NCBI GenBank assembly: GCA_949751835.1
Contig: CATKHK010000030.1
Location: 310,001-374,000, forward strand
Source: Blepharisma japonicum
Taxonomy: Eukaryota > Ciliophora > Heterotrichea > Heterotrichida > Blepharismidae
Length of the DNA: 64,000 nt
Reading direction: 5' to 3'
Shown: positions 1 through 56,712 of the stretch, one piece after another
Layout: each line of letters starts with the position of its first letter
How positions within the stretch are numbered: position 1 is the first letter of the stretch
Translations under genes and position numbers: made by a program
The notes under the pieces: generated by a model
What the model was told of the DNA's origin: nothing
The model's database searches: none
Seen by the model: only the letters and a program-made list of their open reading frames with translations

Positions 1-1762
1 TAGCTATAAGTTTTTCTAAGAGATCATGAGGAATTTTATAGGAATGCTTTGATCTATCATCTAAAAATATTACTTCAATAACGGGCGTTCTGAAAGAAAA
101 GAGTAATGGCTTTTTATCTACAGTTAATTGCTCTACTGAATCATCAAGATTTGTGGATCCTTTTTTAATTGCTTCATTTGTACTAAGATCGATAGTTAAT
201 TTTACATAATCTTGGGCATCCTTTATTTTTTCATCGAAGCTAATTCGTGTTAATAAAGATGAAATTAATGTAGTTCCAGAGTTAGATGCAATTCTTAATA
301 ATTTCCCTATTTCATCTTTTTTAAACAAATATTTGGCTTTAAAATCATCACTTTTGGCATATAGCTTTGGACAGTTAAATATTATTTGCACCTTTCTTTG
401 ATATTTAGCTTCAATAAACTGAGAAATTTGATAATCTGAATCAATCTTCACACCATTAAAAATAACTTGAAATTCTTGAAAGTAGTTAATGCATATACTA
501 CCCCAGCCTATGAAATTGTTCTCAACTATTTTCTTTAATAATCCTAAAGTTATGGGGTATTTCTTCGAAAAATTGCCAATCTTTAATTCTACAGTCGGAA
601 AATTGATTTTTATGTTTTTATCAGGGATTTGAAGTTCCTTAGGCTCAGTCGGAAAATCCCATTTTTTCATCTCATCTTCATTGAAAACTACAGATAACTT
701 GGGAGCTACTAATTCAGGTCAATATAGCAAATACATTGTTTCAGTTCCTAAATCTTTAGGATCCTTACTAAAGTTTTTGATCATATTTTTTACATTTTGC
801 CCTTCCCAACACATAGCAAGTGACTTCTCTTCACTGTCTTTTAACCTTCCAGAAAATAGCCTCTCCATCATTTTAGCTGTAAGAGAAAGCAATTTAGAAT
901 CTTTGAGAATCAAGCCTTTGGATTGCAGTTTTCTTATGGTATCTCCAATTTTGCCTTGCTTAACAGCTTCAGGTGTTAGCAAAATTAGGACCCTTTCCCA
1001 ATCTAGCTTATAGGAGAGATATGGAAAATTGTCAGGAATCATTATGGGATCTGGGTTTTTATAAATGTTCAGCCATTCTCGAGCTTGAGACACATTTTTA
1101 GGAATGAATTCAATTATCTCTTGCTCAGTCTTAAAAATGAAATGAGCTAAGTTCTGAAGGGGAACATAAAATCCTGTATTGATATCAGTAAAACTAATCT
1201 GCATTGATGACAATTTTATTGAATATTTTCCTATGCTTTCTGTCAGTTGCGTACTTAAATCAATTTTTTTTGGAACATCAGGTCGTGACTGAGGAAGAGA
1301 TATTTCTTTTTCTTCAACCTTTTGCTCAATTTGTTTTGGTGATCTATGTACAATATTTTTATTTCCAAGCTTTGTTATTGTAAGTACATTTCCGAAGAAG
1401 TTGTTTGTTGTAGCAGGATTTAGAACTGGCTTTGATTTTATATTTTTATTAACTGGAACTTGCCTATTTTTCTTGTTATTGGTTTTATAGGGAGTGGAGC
1501 TAAGCCTATCTTGCAGACGAGTTCTTGCAATAAACTGCTTTTCATGATGCAATGGAGAATTTTTGGGTAATTCATCTTGTGGTCCTGAGAAGTTTCTTAT
1601 AGTGACATTTTTATTGACAGAGTTTCTTTGCATTGAAAAGTTATTAACATTTCTTGAATCCTGACGAATATGAACATTCAGGATGCTTGCTGACGGATAA
1701 TCTTTTTTTTGCAAATATGATGGCTGTAAGGGAGATAATTTTGGTAGTTTTTTATTTCTCAT
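1..1762 (-). CDS. Unrecognised protein, C-terminus beyond the window edge
   Basis: The frame is open from an ATG at 1762 down to base 1, at least 587 residues, if the TGA at 719-721 is read as Trp. I checked positions 2-300 codon by codon and found no TAA or TAG. The first ~150 residues are polar, rich in Asn, Lys and Ser and probably disordered. From about residue 170 the sequence is more folded-looking, with hydrophobic stretches such as FIFKTEQEIIEFIPKN. There is no signal peptide or membrane segment. I do not recognise a family. It lies head to tail with the next gene on the same strand, 98 bp apart. Confidence 0.8.
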
Positions 1763-42176: not shown

Positions 42177-42821
42177 ATGGCTAACTTTGATCAAGTCTTG
42201 CAAAATCTCAGCTTTTACGATAACAAAAAAGAAAAATCCTCTTGAAGTGGGTGGCTTTCAGGGTACTGAAACAAAAAAAACCCAACTGACAAAGACAAAG
42301 ATAAATTTTTTGACAGCCTAGCAGCATCCATCAAAACAAAAGGCGCAGCTGGACTTTCTGTCTTTCAATCTGCAGCAAACAGAACCTACAGGATTAAAAA
42401 CTTTTTCTTATTCTTATTACTTTCAATTGGTCTATTTATCGGTGCATTTATGTTTTTGCCTATGGTTTTACTATTCCCTCAAAAATTCGCTTTAATGTTT
42501 TCTTTAGCATCTTTCTGCATGCAAATTGCAATGAGTTACCTTAAGCCAAATTCTATAGCATATTTCAAGTGTTTATTCTACGGTAAAGACAATCTGAAAG
42601 TATCTTTAGCTTATTTCATCTCTTTATTCTGGACAATATATTCTGCTATTATACTGCGCAGCTATATCTGGGTGTGCATCTCTTCAAGCATACAATTTTT
42701 AGCCTTGCTTTGGTTTTTATTTAGCATGGTTCCTGGAGGGACGTCTGGGTTTATTACTCTTCTGAAATATAGCTTTAAGCTTTGCCCCTGCATGCCAACT
42801 GAGTCATTATTGCCTTTATAA
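42177..42821 (+). CDS. SFT2: SFT2/Got1-like vesicle transport protein
   Basis: The ATG at 42177 and two TGA-as-Trp codons (KSSWSGWLSGYWNKKN) give 214 residues. Four membrane segments follow residue ~78 (FFLFLLLSIGLFIGAFMFLP, and KFALMFSLASFCMQIAMSYL). The family marks KNFFLF, the KFAL helix and the ending VPGGTSGFITLLKY are visible. SFT2 proteins act in retrograde endosome-to-Golgi vesicle fusion. It is convergent with the cyclase gene, only 21 bp apart. Confidence 0.92.
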
Positions 42822-42842: not shown

Positions 42843-45476
42843 TTATTTATCATGGAGTTCTCTATATCCAGCCCAATCGGATGGAGCACGATTTCCTTCT
42901 TCTTTCATGAAATTCAAAAGAGTTTCACATGGCCCATCTTCACAGCCTTTGATTTTTTGAGCCTTGTGGAAGCCTTCTATTGCTTTTTCCCATCTCCCTG
43001 CAAAATAATTATCAAGTGCTTTGGAAAATTCTCCGAAAAATGATTTTGATATGTTTTCTTTCATTATTTTGAGATCAAAATCATCATTTCATAATAAATG
43101 AATGGGATATTCTCCACTTTTTGCCTGAGATTTAAGCTTATCTCTAACAATTCTGGCTAAAACTCTTGCCTGTTTAGAGTCAGCATCACTTAGTGTAGCT
43201 TCTGGAACAGGAGGTAGTGCTTCAAGATCAAGATCACAGGTATAGAGCTCGATTGGCTCCTTGCTACCTTTTACTGTAACTCTATCGATTTTTCTTAGTT
43301 TGGTTTTGGTCATATTTGAGCAGATTCCGTATAAAGCGTTACTTATAAGTATTGGGACTCCAAATTGTTTTGTAGCAGCTTCAAGCCTGGATGCCATATT
43401 GACATTTGGCGACAAATAAGAAGCATCTATTTTAAATTCACTTCCTATAGCCCCTTCAATTGCCCAGCCTTGGTGTAACCCGAACCCCATTTTTACCGAA
43501 TATCCAGGCATGCGGCCATTAAGTTCAGGGTGATTCCTGTATTTCAAAATTTTTCCATTTTTATTGATTTCTGCAATAATTTTTATAAAACTAATAACTG
43601 CCATATCAGCAATTTCTTTAATAAAAGGATTTCTGCCAAGAACTCTTCTACCAATATCTGAGGCATCATTTTCCAGAGTTTCATCTGGAAATTTCCAGCA
43701 CAATAAAAAGGCATCGCCGATGTTTTTATTAGCTGTGCCAGAGTATTTATCAACAGTACTGTGGACAATATGAGCAATGTCATTGACAAATGCCATGACT
43801 TCGTTCTGTAGCACTTCTGTTGTATCAGTGAAGTTTCTTATATCGCAAAACCCAAATATACAAATTGTTCGCTTTCCGGCAATCATTGGATTTACTTCAC
43901 CTCCGCCTTTTTGGATATTAGTTGCAATAATTTCAGATCCAGCCTCGCCGAATCCTAATGCAAGAAGGGCACCTATTTTAGTGACAGTTTGTTCAAGAAA
44001 TGCAGTTTCCATTGGCTCTTCTGCCTTTTTAAGTTTTTCTTTTGAAGTTAGACCTTTGAGAACTTCTTTTTTTTCTTCTTTTTGAGCCGCTTGAAGTGGG
44101 TTTTTTGCGATATTTTGTATTTTTTTAATCATATTTTCAAGGGGGTTTAATACCATTTCTTGGGCGTCATTGCTAAGCATCATTGTTGCAGCTGATAAAA
44201 GAACACATATAAAAACTGTTCTAATAATATTTAGCCCAGCTTCAAGCCTGGAACTTTTTCTTATATCAAATACTGCATAGCTTGCATAATAATAATCAGA
44301 GCTTTTATCTTCAAGATATGCATAAGTTTTTTCAGTATCCCTTAAATCATCTTGATCTGTGCTTGTATCCCATGTATTTTTATTTTTTACATAAAGGTAT
44401 ATAAGTGGTGTGTATAATTTTTTGTGTTTGCTAATAAAATTATTTCAAGCTAATATGAACGATTCATCATTACCAATAACTGAGTCTATAGCCTCAAGTC
44501 CATAGGTGTATGAGGTATTGCTGTCGATATATAAAGTAGGGTAAAATATGGGTAGTCCAACCATTACTGCAATAACAAGCACAATAACTCTTTTTGTAGT
44601 ATTGTCATTTAGAGTCTTGCCAACATTGCTTTCTTGGGGTATTTCAATTTCTTCAGGCAAACTTTCTGTATCAGAAAATGCATGATTTGATGAGCCGGAT
44701 ATAGAATTTTTTCTATCATTTCCTAAGCTCCCATGGTCTTCTAAATTAGAAGTGAATGATTGAGAAACCGAGGCTTCGCTGCCTTCATCAATATCTTCAA
44801 AAAACTTATTTTGCATCCTAGGTAAGTGTATTGCTTCTTCTCCCCTATACTTTACATTAGTTCTCCTTAAAAGTGGCTTATTTTTTCTAGCTGCTTCTTT
44901 TGCAGCTTTAGCAATTTTATATAGTTTTGTAATCCTAATCAGTCTAATGACTCTTATTACCCTTATAACTCTTGCAGCTCTAGCCGCTCCTCTCGATGCT
45001 TGTCCAGCATTAGCTATTTTGGAAGCTTTACTGCTTCCTCCAGACCCGCTATCCACCATCGCATTTCAGACCCAGCCAATATCAATAATCAATGAGAGTG
45101 TTGAAATCAAATCAAGTCAAAAGAAAAATCCTAAAAAGTACTCTTCTTTGGCAAGTGAGGATAATATAATCTCCAAAGTGAAGAAAAACAGACAAACTGT
45201 TGTTAAACTGTAAAAAGCATCATCTGCACTTTTCGAGGTGGCACAAACACGGATATCGTCCCCAAATAGAGCGTAGAGAGTTATAACTATCATAAAAGTT
45301 TGAGTGGCTCAGTGGTCTAATATTTTGCATATGATCAATCTTCAATTTATTTCATGAAATTCAAGGGTGGGCTCGATTGTTTTTAGATTAGCGTCGTTGC
45401 TGAATTGATTAGACTTGTCGTCTATATTGGTTTTTCTATCGCTGAGCCTGATCTCGAATTCAGAGCTTATGCTCAT
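42843..45476 (-). CDS. Voltage-sensor domain fused to a class III nucleotide cyclase, 877 aa
   Basis: Six in-frame TGA codons are read as Trp; the first ATG of the long frame is 45476. Residues ~55-185 form an S1-S4 voltage sensor, with S2/S3 acidic residues and an S4 of Arg/Lys every third position (RAARVIRVIRVIRLIRITK). After a cytosolic linker come one membrane segment (~300-320), a ~100-residue outer loop, and another segment (~410-435). Residues ~530-750 form a cyclase domain with both metal Asp (GFCDIRNFTD, NIGDAFLLCW) and the SPNVNMASRLEA transition-state motif. The C-terminus holds a TPR-like helix pair. No potassium-pore GYG is visible. It probably makes cAMP. Confidence 0.92.
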
Positions 45477-45821: not shown

Positions 45822-46580
45822 ATGGATTTTCTTACCACTGAGACAGGAAAAAAGCTTTCCTATATCCTTACACTTAGTCAACACAAATCTCCTTATTTGC
45901 TTATCATTATACACGGAACTTGTAGTAGCAAGGATTCTTTATTTTTACCTCATCTAAGTGATAACTCAACTTATAATACCTTGAGATTTGACTTCCCAGG
46001 TAATGGAGACAGTGAAGGCGAATTTGAATTCGGTGGTTTTGAAAAAGAAGTTTCTATTATTCACAGTGTTGTTCTCTGGGCTAAAAGCCATGGGTACAAA
46101 CCTTTAGCATTAATCGGCCACTCAAAAGCAGGGAATGAAGTTTTAATGTACTCAGCCAAATATGGAGATGTGCCTTTAATCATTTCAGTTGCAGGAAGAC
46201 TTGACATGAGCATTATTCCTGCTTTTGTCCAGCCTGCCTTGAGCACTATAGAGGCAGAAGGACAAGCAACTATTGAATGGCTTGGGAGAGAATACAATAT
46301 CACAAAGGTTGGGGTAGATGAAAGAAAGGCTATTAATATGACAAGGATTTTGGCTGCTGTAAGAAATTGGGTCTGTGTTATACATGGAGATATAGACCCA
46401 GTTACAAATATTGAAGATGCAGAAGGAATATCAAAAATGTTAGGCAGAAGATGTTTTGAGCTAGATGTTATTCAGGGTGCTAATCATTCTTTTAAAAATC
46501 GCGAAGTAGAATTGTTGCAGAATATAGAAAATTTCTTAGCAAAAGCTTTGCCATTACTTCAATTAAACCATAAAATTTAG
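45822..46580 (+). CDS. Alpha/beta-hydrolase, 252 aa
   Basis: The core fold is visible: the oxyanion segment IIHGTCSSKD (~30-40), DFPGNGDSEG, the nucleophile elbow GHSKAG (Ser ~104), then an acid region HGDIDPVTN (~190-198) and the catalytic His in GANHSFKN (~222). The length suits a small esterase or acylglycerol lipase. The substrate is unknown. There is no signal peptide, TGA codon or intron. Confidence 0.9.
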   Translation: MDFLTTETGKKLSYILTLSQHKSPYLLIIIHGTCSSKDSLFLPHLSDNSTYNTLRFDFPGNGDSEGEFEFGGFEKEVSIIHSVVLWAKSHGYKPLALIGHSKAGNEVLMYSAKYGDVPLIISVAGRLDMSIIPAFVQPALSTIEAEGQATIEWLGREYNITKVGVDERKAINMTRILAAVRNWVCVIHGDIDPVTNIEDAEGISKMLGRRCFELDVIQGANHSFKNREVELLQNIENFLAKALPLLQLNHKI

Positions 46581-53136: not shown

Positions 53137-56100
53137 ATGGATTCGAAAGGACTCAGAGATGAAATAGAAATGAAAGGTACAATTGCTGATGTTAAAACTC
53201 CAGATTTCCATAATAGACCTAGCCAAATTCTCCAAAGCATGGTAAAAGAGAAAAACGAAACCAGTGATGACTTACAAAAAGCTTTTATGTACGTCTCCAG
53301 CCATCTTCCACGCACAATCGAAATGCCATTCCAAGGCAACTGCTTCCAAGCTAGCAAAAACTCCAAGTTTTTTGTTTTAGGGAGCAACAAAGGGAGATTG
53401 GCAGTGACTGATTCTAGAGAGGTAACCAAAGATATCAATATCGAAATTGGTATAAAATCACTTGTTCTTTACCATGATGATACCTTTGTCTTTGTCGGGC
53501 TTGTTGATAGCAATATCAAAAAATACCAGCTTTCAACGTTTGAGTTGGTAGATACATACGCTGGCCACCAAGGCAAAGTGACGAAACTCCTTTTATCGAG
53601 AAATGACTTATTTCTTTTCTCTGCTAGTGCAGACGGAACAATTAGAGAGTGGCCAACAAACTCGCCAAAAGAGGCAGTTTCTCGTGTTATATACAAACAT
53701 GACAATGAAATTATTGACTTTGATTTAAGCTACGATGGCGGGCATTTTGCAAGCTCTTCAAAAGATGATGGAGTGCTAAAAGTATATTCAGTGGCTCAAA
53801 ATAAAGATATTGCAGCAATCGTAAATGAGTACGGTGCAACATATTCTTGTGTTAAATTTTCACCTAAAAAAACCTATCTGGCTGCTGGAGATATGTACTC
53901 AAGAATAACTCTTTGGAGTTTCACAAATTTATCAGAACCCTTGAAGTCTCTTATAGGAAGTGAAGATAAAATAAGAGACTTGGCATTCACATATGATGAA
54001 AGTGCACTTGTTTCTGCAAGCAAAGACACTAATATAAGATTGTGGAGTCTTAATACTGCACATGATGAAATTGTTTTGACTCAGCATTCTGAATCAGTAA
54101 AAGGAGTAATCATTGGAGAAGGAGATCAGCAGATCTTTTCACTTGGAAAAGATTATAAGATTAGGATATGGAAAATACCTAGATTCAAACGTCATAGAAA
54201 ACTACTGGATCATACTGACACAATATGAAGGCTAAAGTTTTCAAAAAACAGCAACCGCCTTTATAGTAATTCTGATGATCAAAGGATCATTGTATGGGAG
54301 CATAGCACTGGTGAAAAAATTCAAGAATTATTTCACTACGTTGGAATGTTTGCTATGGCATTAACCAAAGATGAAAGTCATCTTATTTCTTGTACAGATG
54401 ATGGAAAAATCATTTTTTGAAATCTCGAAACATTTAAAAGAGATAAAGAAATTCCCATGGAAGAAGGAACAATTAGATCCTTAATTATGACGAGCAATTA
54501 TTTTATTACAGGGGATGAAGCTTTTCGTGTAGTTGTTTGGGACTTGAGATCTTACAATATTGTCCATATTTTTAGAAGCCATAGATCAGCTGTTTGGTCT
54601 TTGACTGACTATGAGCCTGACAACAAGCTTTATTCAGGAGATGACAAAGGCTCAATCATGATTCATGATATGACCTTCAATAAAACTGATCATGGAGAGC
54701 TTGAAGGCCATGGTGCAAGAGTTCAACGCTTGAAAATTAGCAGAAATGGAGAAATCTTAATTTCAGGATCAAGAGATGGGATTATAAAGATTTGAAGTGT
54801 CAAGATGAACAGCCTGCTCAGAACTATTGAATATCATACCGATGTCCTAAGGGAAATTTACTGCACAAAGGACCAAAAGTACTTTTTTGTCTGCTCTGAA
54901 GATAAGCAGATGTCGATTTTTGATATGAGAGAGTTCAGCTTAATTACATCGATATCCTTCAAGAAAAAGCTTATGGCCATGGCCTTTACAGAAGATGAAC
55001 TGACTATTGCGCTTGCTGAAGAATCCACTATTACACTGATTGAGAATCCAGTCTATATAGATAGAATTGGGTCCTCTGATGTTAGAGTTTATGGCCCTGG
55101 TAGTGATTATATGAACTTTTTAAGCTATTGCTCTCAGATCATGCTTAACCAAAGTCCTGATTACGATCCTCAAATGGATGCCTGAATTATTCAGCCATTT
55201 AGACTTAATGCTCTACATCTATACGCATATTTTAACCTCCCAAGACATTTAAAGCTTGGAATTAAAAATTTGGCACCATTTATTTCAACAAGGCATGGGG
55301 AAACCGCACTTTCTCTAAGTCTTAAGAAAAATTTTGGAAATTGCATTCAAGCCATTTTTAAAGTGTTTGATAAACGTGCTGAAAGAAACATCCATATTTT
55401 TAATTCTTTAGAAAATTCAGTTATTGACTTAAACAAAAAAGGATTTCCAGGATTAGATCGATTTTATAAAACCATTGTTATAAGATGAAACGATCAAGCA
55501 ATGCCCAAATTTTGCAAGCCCAGCAAAAGTTTGCCAAAAATAATTCAGTCTGATTTCATTATCCCTAAATGTGAGAATTTTATGAACCTTGCCCAATATA
55601 CAAAGGACGGGAAAGCAATTATGTTCTTGATTGCTTTGGTCAGAATAAATCTTACTATGGGTTCAAAAGAAAGCTTAGAGTTTTTGGATAGCTTAGGAGA
55701 ATGCCCTGAAACATCTATTTTCAACACCTATTTTATCAAAACAATTCTAAAAGAAAAATGAAAATGAATTTGCTGACTATTGTATATTCAAACAGCTCTA
55801 TATGTAGGATACTTAATCTCATTTGCCTGCTATACCAGTATGCATGACAACGAAGGCCGCTATTTGATTCCTCCTTTTGTGTTTAACCAAATTTTGACTG
55901 TCTACGAGATCTTCCAAATCTGGGTTGGAGGGATCTATTATTGGAAAACGTGGACTAACTATCTCGATATATCAAGACTCTTTTTATTTGATGCCTATTC
56001 ACTTACAGTTTGGACTACCACAATAGACAATGTTGAATACTTCGAAGCTGCCGTTATTGCTTTAACATGGTTCCGTGGGATTACTTATTTTAGGGTTTTC

Positions 56101-56712
56101 GAGCCTACCCGTTACTTGATTAATTTACTTTATGAAGTCATGTGGGACATGATCCCATTCTTATTTACGCTGTTCTACTCTACTACAGCGTTTGCCGTCA
56201 TTTATAGCGCAATGGTGACCGATACCCAAGACCTGACATTTTTCTCATGCATCACGACTGCATGAAGAATGAATATTGGAGACTTTTCAACTGACACTTA
56301 TGATTCTTATCTAACTTGGGGCTTCCACTGGTTCTTCACAGTCTTAAATCCAATCATTTTGATAAACTTGCTAATATCGCTTATGGGCACTACGTTTGGG
56401 AGGGTGCAAGAAAATAGAGACATTGCTGACAGTAAGGAGCTGATCAGTATGATTATTGAAGGGGAAACTTTATTATTCTGAAGGAGAAATCTAGGACAAA
56501 AAACATATTTACAGGTTTGTATGGAAGAAGGCAGCCTAGAGGACCAAAATGTAGAAGATGAGGTCAGAAAATTAAAGAGAATCAAGCTCAAGCTTGATGA
56601 TATGGCCAAAGAAGCTGATAAGAACGAAGAAGAAAATATAGCAATGATTGATAGAATCAATTATGCCGTTTATGATCTCAAAAATAGAATCAATTATGGA
56701 AGCGATCAATAG
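53137..56712 (+). CDS. WD40-repeat protein fused to a TRP-like cation channel, 1191 aa
   Basis: Ten TGA codons read as Trp keep a single frame (54226, 54418, 54793, 55183, 55486, 55759, 55765, 55774, 56263, 56479). Residues ~70-640 are WD40 repeats, probably two propellers (ITLWSFTN, IRLWSLNT, IRIWKIPR endings). A short ankyrin-like region (~690-740) follows. Six membrane segments span ~880-1110, with the pore region GDFSTD and a final segment LINLLISLMGTTFG, then a TRP-box-like helix. A coiled coil ends the protein. Calcium-permeable conduction is inferred. Confidence 0.93.

Follow-up and report, generated by a model that had tools for sequence, protein, structure and literature searches.

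Adenylyl cyclases of alveolates, including those of Paramecium, Tetrahymena and Plasmodium (AC-alpha), are described as K+-channel fusions; the published descriptions give them six spans, a voltage-sensor domain (VSD), a GXG motif past the sixth transmembrane domain (TMD6) and a C-terminal cyclase. For the Plasmodium enzyme, K+-channel activity is a prediction that still lacks confirmation (PMC5746546). A study of Phytophthora (Sci Rep 2025) describes VSD-cyclases that have no pore helix and occur in some 90 organisms with flagella or cilia (PMC12223298). Here, we analyzed a 64,000-nucleotide stretch of DNA from the ciliate Blepharisma japonicum (the window; contig CATKHK010000030.1, positions 310,001 to 374,000). 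A single minus-strand gene at 42843-45476 of the window encodes S1-S4, a disordered linker, a fifth transmembrane segment (TM5), an outer domain, TM6, helices and a class III cyclase, in that order. From sequence and models we judge its product to be, with a probability of roughly 0.6, a membrane adenylyl cyclase that would be controlled by membrane voltage and would not be an ion channel.

On the published description, the Phytophthora proteins PPTG_13136 and PPTG_13761 resemble the window protein in their N-terminal voltage-sensor segment, C-terminal cyclase and lack of pore-helix homology (PMC12223298), and the window protein shows the VSD, the cyclase and the missing pore-helix homology given there for bimodal VSD-cyclases of stramenopiles and alveolates. 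An architecture of this kind has been in print since 2025, and its novelty is therefore lower than a first-pass annotation of this DNA had claimed. What is added here is the size of the family and its catalytic decay within one genome, a link between an LGFGEAG motif and catalysis, and bacterial homologues. The available part of the Phytophthora account mentions no such outer domain, catalytically dead paralogues or LGFGEAG pattern, and the Poribacteria homologues are a further difference. Two other systems are more distant. Ci-VSP shares a VSD that controls an enzyme without a pore, an analogy of mechanism only, the enzyme being unrelated, and sNHE (SLC9C1) carries a VSD on a non-channel membrane protein but differs in being an exchanger without a cyclase (PMC10651576).

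Voltage sensor and cyclase of the window protein

Pfam matched both parts of the protein, with Ion_trans at residues 58-188 (E 1.5e-10) and Guanylate_cyc at residues 537-745 (E 3.3e-13). Ion_trans aligns only over profile positions 4-117 of 241, which is the S1-S4 half, and phmmer searches of PDB sequences returned Shaker and Kv1.2 (best E 0.0026 and 0.023, respectively) inside residues 81-204. Ten consecutive lysines or arginines stand at period 3 in S4 (166, 169 ... 193); when the protein was shuffled 20,000 times, the longest such basic run was 6, reached in 44 shuffles. A search of the 45.2-Mb genome (224 contigs), whose genes read UGA as Trp, found at least 33 matching stretches, giving 21 genes as a lower bound, which were aligned from S1 through the cyclase. 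F99, E/D102 and D122, positions that hold the S4 charges in Kv channels, are kept in all 21 paralogues, and the longest period-3 basic runs of the other 20 range from 5 to 10. The S1-S4 segments, regular S4 charges and charge-transfer center of the voltage-sensor superfamily are thus all found in the window protein, and by sequence and model S1-S4 resemble a voltage-sensor domain. The long basic S4 reported by the first-pass annotation is borne out by the Ion_trans alignment, the AlphaFold helices and the period-3 run.

Ion currents through voltage-sensor domains themselves are known in several protein families (PMC10651576), and an Hv1-like flux of protons or cations through the VSD could regulate the cyclase. 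No result here points to such conduction, and we consider it very improbable.

The catalytic domain carries D545, K584, D588, N693 and R697, with S686 at the Thr/Asp position. Class III cyclases use two metal-binding aspartates, a purine-binding lysine, and an asparagine and an arginine that act in the transition state. The domain is predicted from these residues to be that of an intact adenylyl cyclase, and the alignment agrees with the earlier claim that both metal-binding aspartates are present. Its best PDB matches by sequence and by fold are bPAC, OaPAC, CyaB and CyaC, bacterial class IIIb cyclases that are soluble or light-sensing and have no VSD.

The TM5-TM6 region and the GFG motif

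The AlphaFold model of the full-length protein, built from the 21-row alignment, has a mean predicted local distance difference test (pLDDT) score of 69 and a predicted template-modeling (pTM) score of 0.50. In it, residues 200-282 are disordered, TM5 spans 284-311, the stretch 322-404 contains two helices along with four strands, and a single long helix covers 406-458. Modeled on its own (23-row alignment), the segment 281-462 reached a mean pLDDT of 83.7, with identical elements and a folded alpha/beta outer domain. The two later membrane segments first proposed around an outer loop of ~100 residues are matched in the model by TM5, an outer domain of ~95 residues and TM6. Past S1-S4, the protein is laid out as a receptor-type cyclase. 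Neither model contains a re-entrant pore helix between TM5 and TM6, and no GxG or TxGYG-like motif was found there in the window protein, which therefore lacks the pore helix and TxGYG that a voltage-gated K+ channel has between S5 and S6. The earlier statement that no pore is visible stands after this search for a pore loop, negative in both sequence and model. In 20 of the 21 paralogues, too, the TM5-TM6 region showed no filter-like motif. The exception, a GFG in paralogue L019, was rejected as a K-channel filter because its sister L018 reads AFG.

As a control, the whole genome was searched with Ion_trans, giving 157 matches. Among the matches listed, seven end before profile position 150, three of them being the window gene, L002 and L006 (ends 113-117); all others listed end at 215-240, that is, through the pore. 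Foldseek comparison of segment 281-462 with the PDB gave no significant match (best E 0.39). Its best 50 of 102 matches include sensor domains (TlpA, LapD, histidine kinases; weak and non-significant) and no K+-channel chain. For a possible Cache identity of the outer domain, these similarities are weak and non-significant, and the matches also include connexins, pannexin and LRRC8; Pfam gave no Cache match up to E 10. Glycosylation sequons number 40 in 2138 residues of the outer segment, where they are present in 17 of 21 rows, against 40 in 6518 residues on the cyclase side and 16 in 1372 in the linker. The linker, which presumably lies in the cytosol, thus also holds sequons, so their density is weak evidence of topology.

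The first-pass annotation overlooked a GFG at residues 508-510, C-terminal to TM6 and ahead of the catalytic domain. The contrast that it drew with pore-bearing alveolate cyclases is doubtful, because the published GXG of those enzymes likewise sits after TMD6 (PMC3283738). With GFG in the corresponding place, the window protein probably belongs to the alveolate "ion channel" adenylyl cyclase family, whose pore is doubtful; set against the published description, it has the complete Weber-type architecture of VSD, six spans, GXG past TMD6 and C-terminal cyclase. The Weber 2004 abstract reportedly places the pore loop on the cytoplasmic side, past the last span. Compared by description, the difference from these putative channel fusions is that the window protein has no recognizable pore and that its GXG goes with the cyclase.

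Alternatively, the protein could be both a cyclase and an unorthodox cation channel, in which oligomers build a pore out of TM5, TM6 and the GFG segment; such a pore has been proposed for the adenylyl cyclases of Paramecium and Plasmodium. GXG past TMD6 is a published signature of alveolate cyclases, and the residues around GFG are mildly hydrophobic (501-519, mean 1.31). GFG is carried by all 12 paralogues with LGFGEAG, and the connexin, pannexin and LRRC8 chains among the non-significant fold matches of TM5-TM6 (E 2.5 and above) also suit such a pore. A 2008 paper reports that exocytosis by sporozoites depends on extracellular K+ at a step upstream of cyclic AMP (cAMP), which was read as fitting a K+ conductance role (PMC2279260). 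However, the GFG lacks a TxGYG context, and its segment is modeled as a helix beside the cyclase, with low confidence at 508-510. The motif reads AFG in a eukaryotic piece (L054, see below) that retains the catalytic motifs, and S/T/C-FG in 6 of the 21 paralogues, all of them catalytically dead. The longer LGFGEAG is intact in 12/12 paralogues that keep D545, K584, N693 and R697 and altered in the other 9/9, being lost exactly with catalysis while the VSD remains; since the paralogues are related, these counts are not independent observations. Three Poribacteria homologues read IGFGEAG and L054 reads IAFGEAG. Because LGFGEAG tracks catalysis while the VSD triad is kept throughout, it is probably a cyclase-linker motif that serves the enzyme and forms no pore, and we regard the channel explanation as unlikely. 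A text search of the available papers found neither GFGEAG nor GYGEAG.

Paralogues, bacterial homologues and genomic setting

All six catalytic residues (D545, K584, D588, S686, N693, R697) are kept in 9 of the 21 paralogues. D588 is replaced by E or Q in three (L005, L006, L007), and the first metal Asp and the catalytic Arg are both lost in nine (L008, L009, L051, L016-L020, L052). The frames of these nine degenerate paralogues are still open, their triad is kept, and the ratio of nonsynonymous to synonymous change (dN/dS) is low where computable. Eight close pairs gave dN/dS of 0.025-0.20 in computable regions, rough values since the Ks computed there is above 1, the other regions being synonymously saturated. 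For the VSD, four of the eight pairs gave 0.08-0.11 (synonymous divergence, Ks, 1.4-2.5, so that the ratios are rough), and the other four were saturated. The C-terminal helices are absent in four paralogues (L008, L009, L020, L052), and TPR_2 was matched by Pfam in two of the 21, the window protein not among them.

Sixteen of the 21 members are paired (L001/L002, L005/L006, L008/L009, L011/L014, L012/L013, L016/L017, L018/L019, L020/L052). Synonymous change within the eight pairs is saturated or nearly so, which suggests that the pairing reflects an old whole-genome or large-scale duplication. Locus L051 (G000:C132:59000-68000) contains two tandem VSD-cyclase genes, the second of 1229 aa and with a linker in which several diverged repeats are visible by eye.

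Guanylate_cyc gave 87 stretches in the genome, and the best 30 were taken as L021-L050, several of them being halves of one gene. Among the loci of these best 30 of 87 stretches, FGEAG was found at 0/30 and a guanylyl cyclase (GC)-like Glu motif in some frame at 30/30; the VSD-cyclases are therefore good candidates, by sequence, for the adenylyl cyclases of the cell. Four guanylate-type loci that were inspected have two cyclase domains each, followed in L037 by a P4-ATPase-like start (by eye). The many guanylate-type cyclases and the reading of UGA as Trp suit a ciliate such as a heterotrich. A further Guanylate_cyc-like gene, split into two stretches and assigned to neither cyclase group, lies at G000:C59:228458-228900. 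At G000:C70:98938-99207, shortly downstream of a Guanylate_cyc stretch, Ion_trans matches over profile positions 13-111, covering only S1-S4.

Beyond the ciliate, one scan of public genome contigs with two strict peptide patterns returned 58 stretches and three relatives; other bacterial carriers may have been missed, as the patterns were strict and the scan single. L053 and L055 come from metagenome-assembled genomes (MAGs) of Candidatus Poribacteria, and L054 from a Verrucomicrobiaceae MAG. L054 (contig G003:C56) was rejected as a bacterial homologue: its contig holds eukaryote-like genes broken as if by introns, the VSD-cyclase among them, and is likely contamination in a public bacterial genome. 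When 288 genomes drawn from that phylum were searched at E 1e-25, the contaminated one gave the sole match. In viral contigs, 65 stretches matched a pattern and none was a relative.

Of 84 genomes searched in the Poribacteria phylum, three encode full-length homologues (E 1e-15). The open frames of these homologues, with 780, 793 and 877 codons, align over the full length with the ciliate protein at 35-36% identity, and the cyclase regions of L053 and L055 match it at about 50%. G286, ahead of TM5, is invariant in the nine-row alignment with the three Poribacteria. In genomes G001 and G027, the gene stands between a solute-binding protein and two ATP-binding cassette (ABC) transporter permeases, with an ATPase after them (SBP_bac_1, two BPD_transp_1 and ABC_tran by Pfam, in L067, the locus of L055, and in L066), and L053 (G002) has similar frames in matching ABC-transporter order. 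In a tree of the cyclase region, the three Poribacteria group with L054 (100/99); very long outgroup branches leave the root unsure. Gene transfer between protists and bacteria is likely on this sequence evidence. The occurrence in Poribacteria is apparently new, although the literature search bearing on it, in which none of the papers listed names Poribacteria, is a thin basis for calling it unpublished.

These comparisons bear on the view that the VSD survives as a relic with a structural or targeting role, such as localization to cilia, and that the outer domain alone controls the enzyme. The VSD persists in the 9 of 21 paralogues with a dead cyclase, and the long and variable linker also fits a relic. 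In Phytophthora, one VSD-cyclase is flagellar, lying mainly on one flagellum (PMC12223298). Conservation of the triad in 21/21 ciliate paralogues, and of F99 and D122 in all nine rows of the alignment with Poribacteria, exceeds what a relic would need, and we find this explanation improbable.

The gene itself has 877 codons and no intron, its start ATG ending at 45476 and its stop at 42843-42845 (Table 1). Genetic code table 6 (TAA/TAG=Gln) was rejected because it interrupts the gene at TGA, whereas TGA=Trp gives one uninterrupted frame with 6 TGA codons. NCBIfam returned no family for the window protein or for L055. The neighbors appear unrelated to the cyclase gene: a Got1/Sft2-like gene at 42177-42821 and an alpha/beta hydrolase at 45822-46580. 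Farther along, 53137-56712 (plus strand) encodes a protein of 1191 aa (TGA=Trp) in which many WD40 repeats precede a region that, by eye, resembles a six-span channel. Its best 25 of 43 Pfam families are all WD40 or beta-propeller types, and it is possibly a WD40-channel fusion.

Table 1. Features of the VSD-cyclase gene, with positions in the window
Feature	Residues	Position	Strand	Basis
Whole coding sequence, 877 aa		42843..45476	-	Frame translation; alignment with 20 paralogues
Voltage-sensor domain S1-S4	45-198	44883..45344	-	Ion_trans S1-S4 half; AlphaFold helices; conserved F99/E102/D122, S4 charges
S1; S2; S3; S4	56-79; 82-109; 117-141; 151-198			AlphaFold helices
S4 run, ten basic residues at period 3	166-193	44898..44981	-	Period-3 count, shuffles
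Disordered linker, variable length among paralogues	199-283	44628..44882	-	pLDDT 26-34 per block over 201-280; alignment
TM5 with preceding conserved G286	284-311	44544..44627	-	Hydropathy peak 297-315; AlphaFold
Outer domain, two helices and four strands, no pore helix	312-404	44265..44543	-	Segment model; Foldseek
TM6 running on into signaling helix; P445 invariant	406-458	44103..44261	-	Alignment, AlphaFold, segment model
Helix with LGFGEAG (507-513), past TM6	489-523	43908..44012	-	Alignment, AlphaFold; low confidence at 508-510
Class III cyclase domain; D545, K584, D588, S686, N693, R697	535-746	43239..43874	-	Pfam, alignment, AlphaFold, Foldseek
C-terminal helices, possibly TPR-like	764-877	42846..43187	-	AlphaFold

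Proposed mechanism and implications

Several points weigh against a voltage-controlled cyclase without a channel. A K+ conductance was reported for the purified Paramecium cyclase (Schultz 1992, as related in citing papers). Confidence in the full-length model is moderate, pLDDT is below 50 at 508-510, so that the helix placement of GFG is weak, and the best 50 of 489 Foldseek matches of the full model are all cyclases, including bPAC, OaPAC, CyaB and CyaC, with no visible support for the VSD fold. A long linker, disordered in the model, separates S4 from TM5, so that a rigid S4-S5 coupling is not evident. Of the 21 paralogues, Pfam at E 0.01 recognizes 12 by Ion_trans and 10 by Guanylate_cyc, and family membership therefore rests on the alignment. 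In Poribacteria, Ion_trans falls under the curated cut-off in L055 and Guanylate_cyc is not reported there (L066 passes both), and the S4 period-3 runs of the three homologues reach only 4-5.

The most likely function is that membrane voltage, perhaps together with an outer ligand, directly sets cAMP. Because class III catalysis requires two subunits, we propose that the protein acts as a dimer. Voltage would move S4, and TM5/TM6 with the helices beneath would then change in packing or register, closing or opening the catalytic dimer. Unlike this protein, Ci-VSP is not known to have a TM5, outer domain or TM6. The outer domain, variable among paralogues, may provide a second and possibly ligand-dependent input, the LGFGEAG segment would relay the signal into the catalytic core, and dead paralogues may serve as regulatory heterodimer partners. 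These protozoa produce cAMP on hyperpolarization, according to a review, which suggests hyperpolarization as the activating sign. Another review states that cAMP injection at constant voltage leaves the beat frequency of Paramecium unchanged (PMC8208649), and this is a caution against a simple role in beat rate. We advance tentatively, as somewhat less probable than not, the joint view that voltage-gated non-conducting cyclases span protists and bacteria, that the alveolate K+ pore is a misread linker motif and that dead paralogues tune the enzyme as heterodimers.

The bacterial homologues may express in ordinary bacteria, which would make the question directly testable, and a natural converter of voltage to cAMP would be a useful tool. 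If voltage control is true, these proteins would join the phosphatases as a second class of enzymes under voltage control, and the recurrent description of alveolate adenylyl cyclases as K+ channels would have to be revised. The ciliate could then turn electrical events straight into second-messenger changes, with no ion flow.
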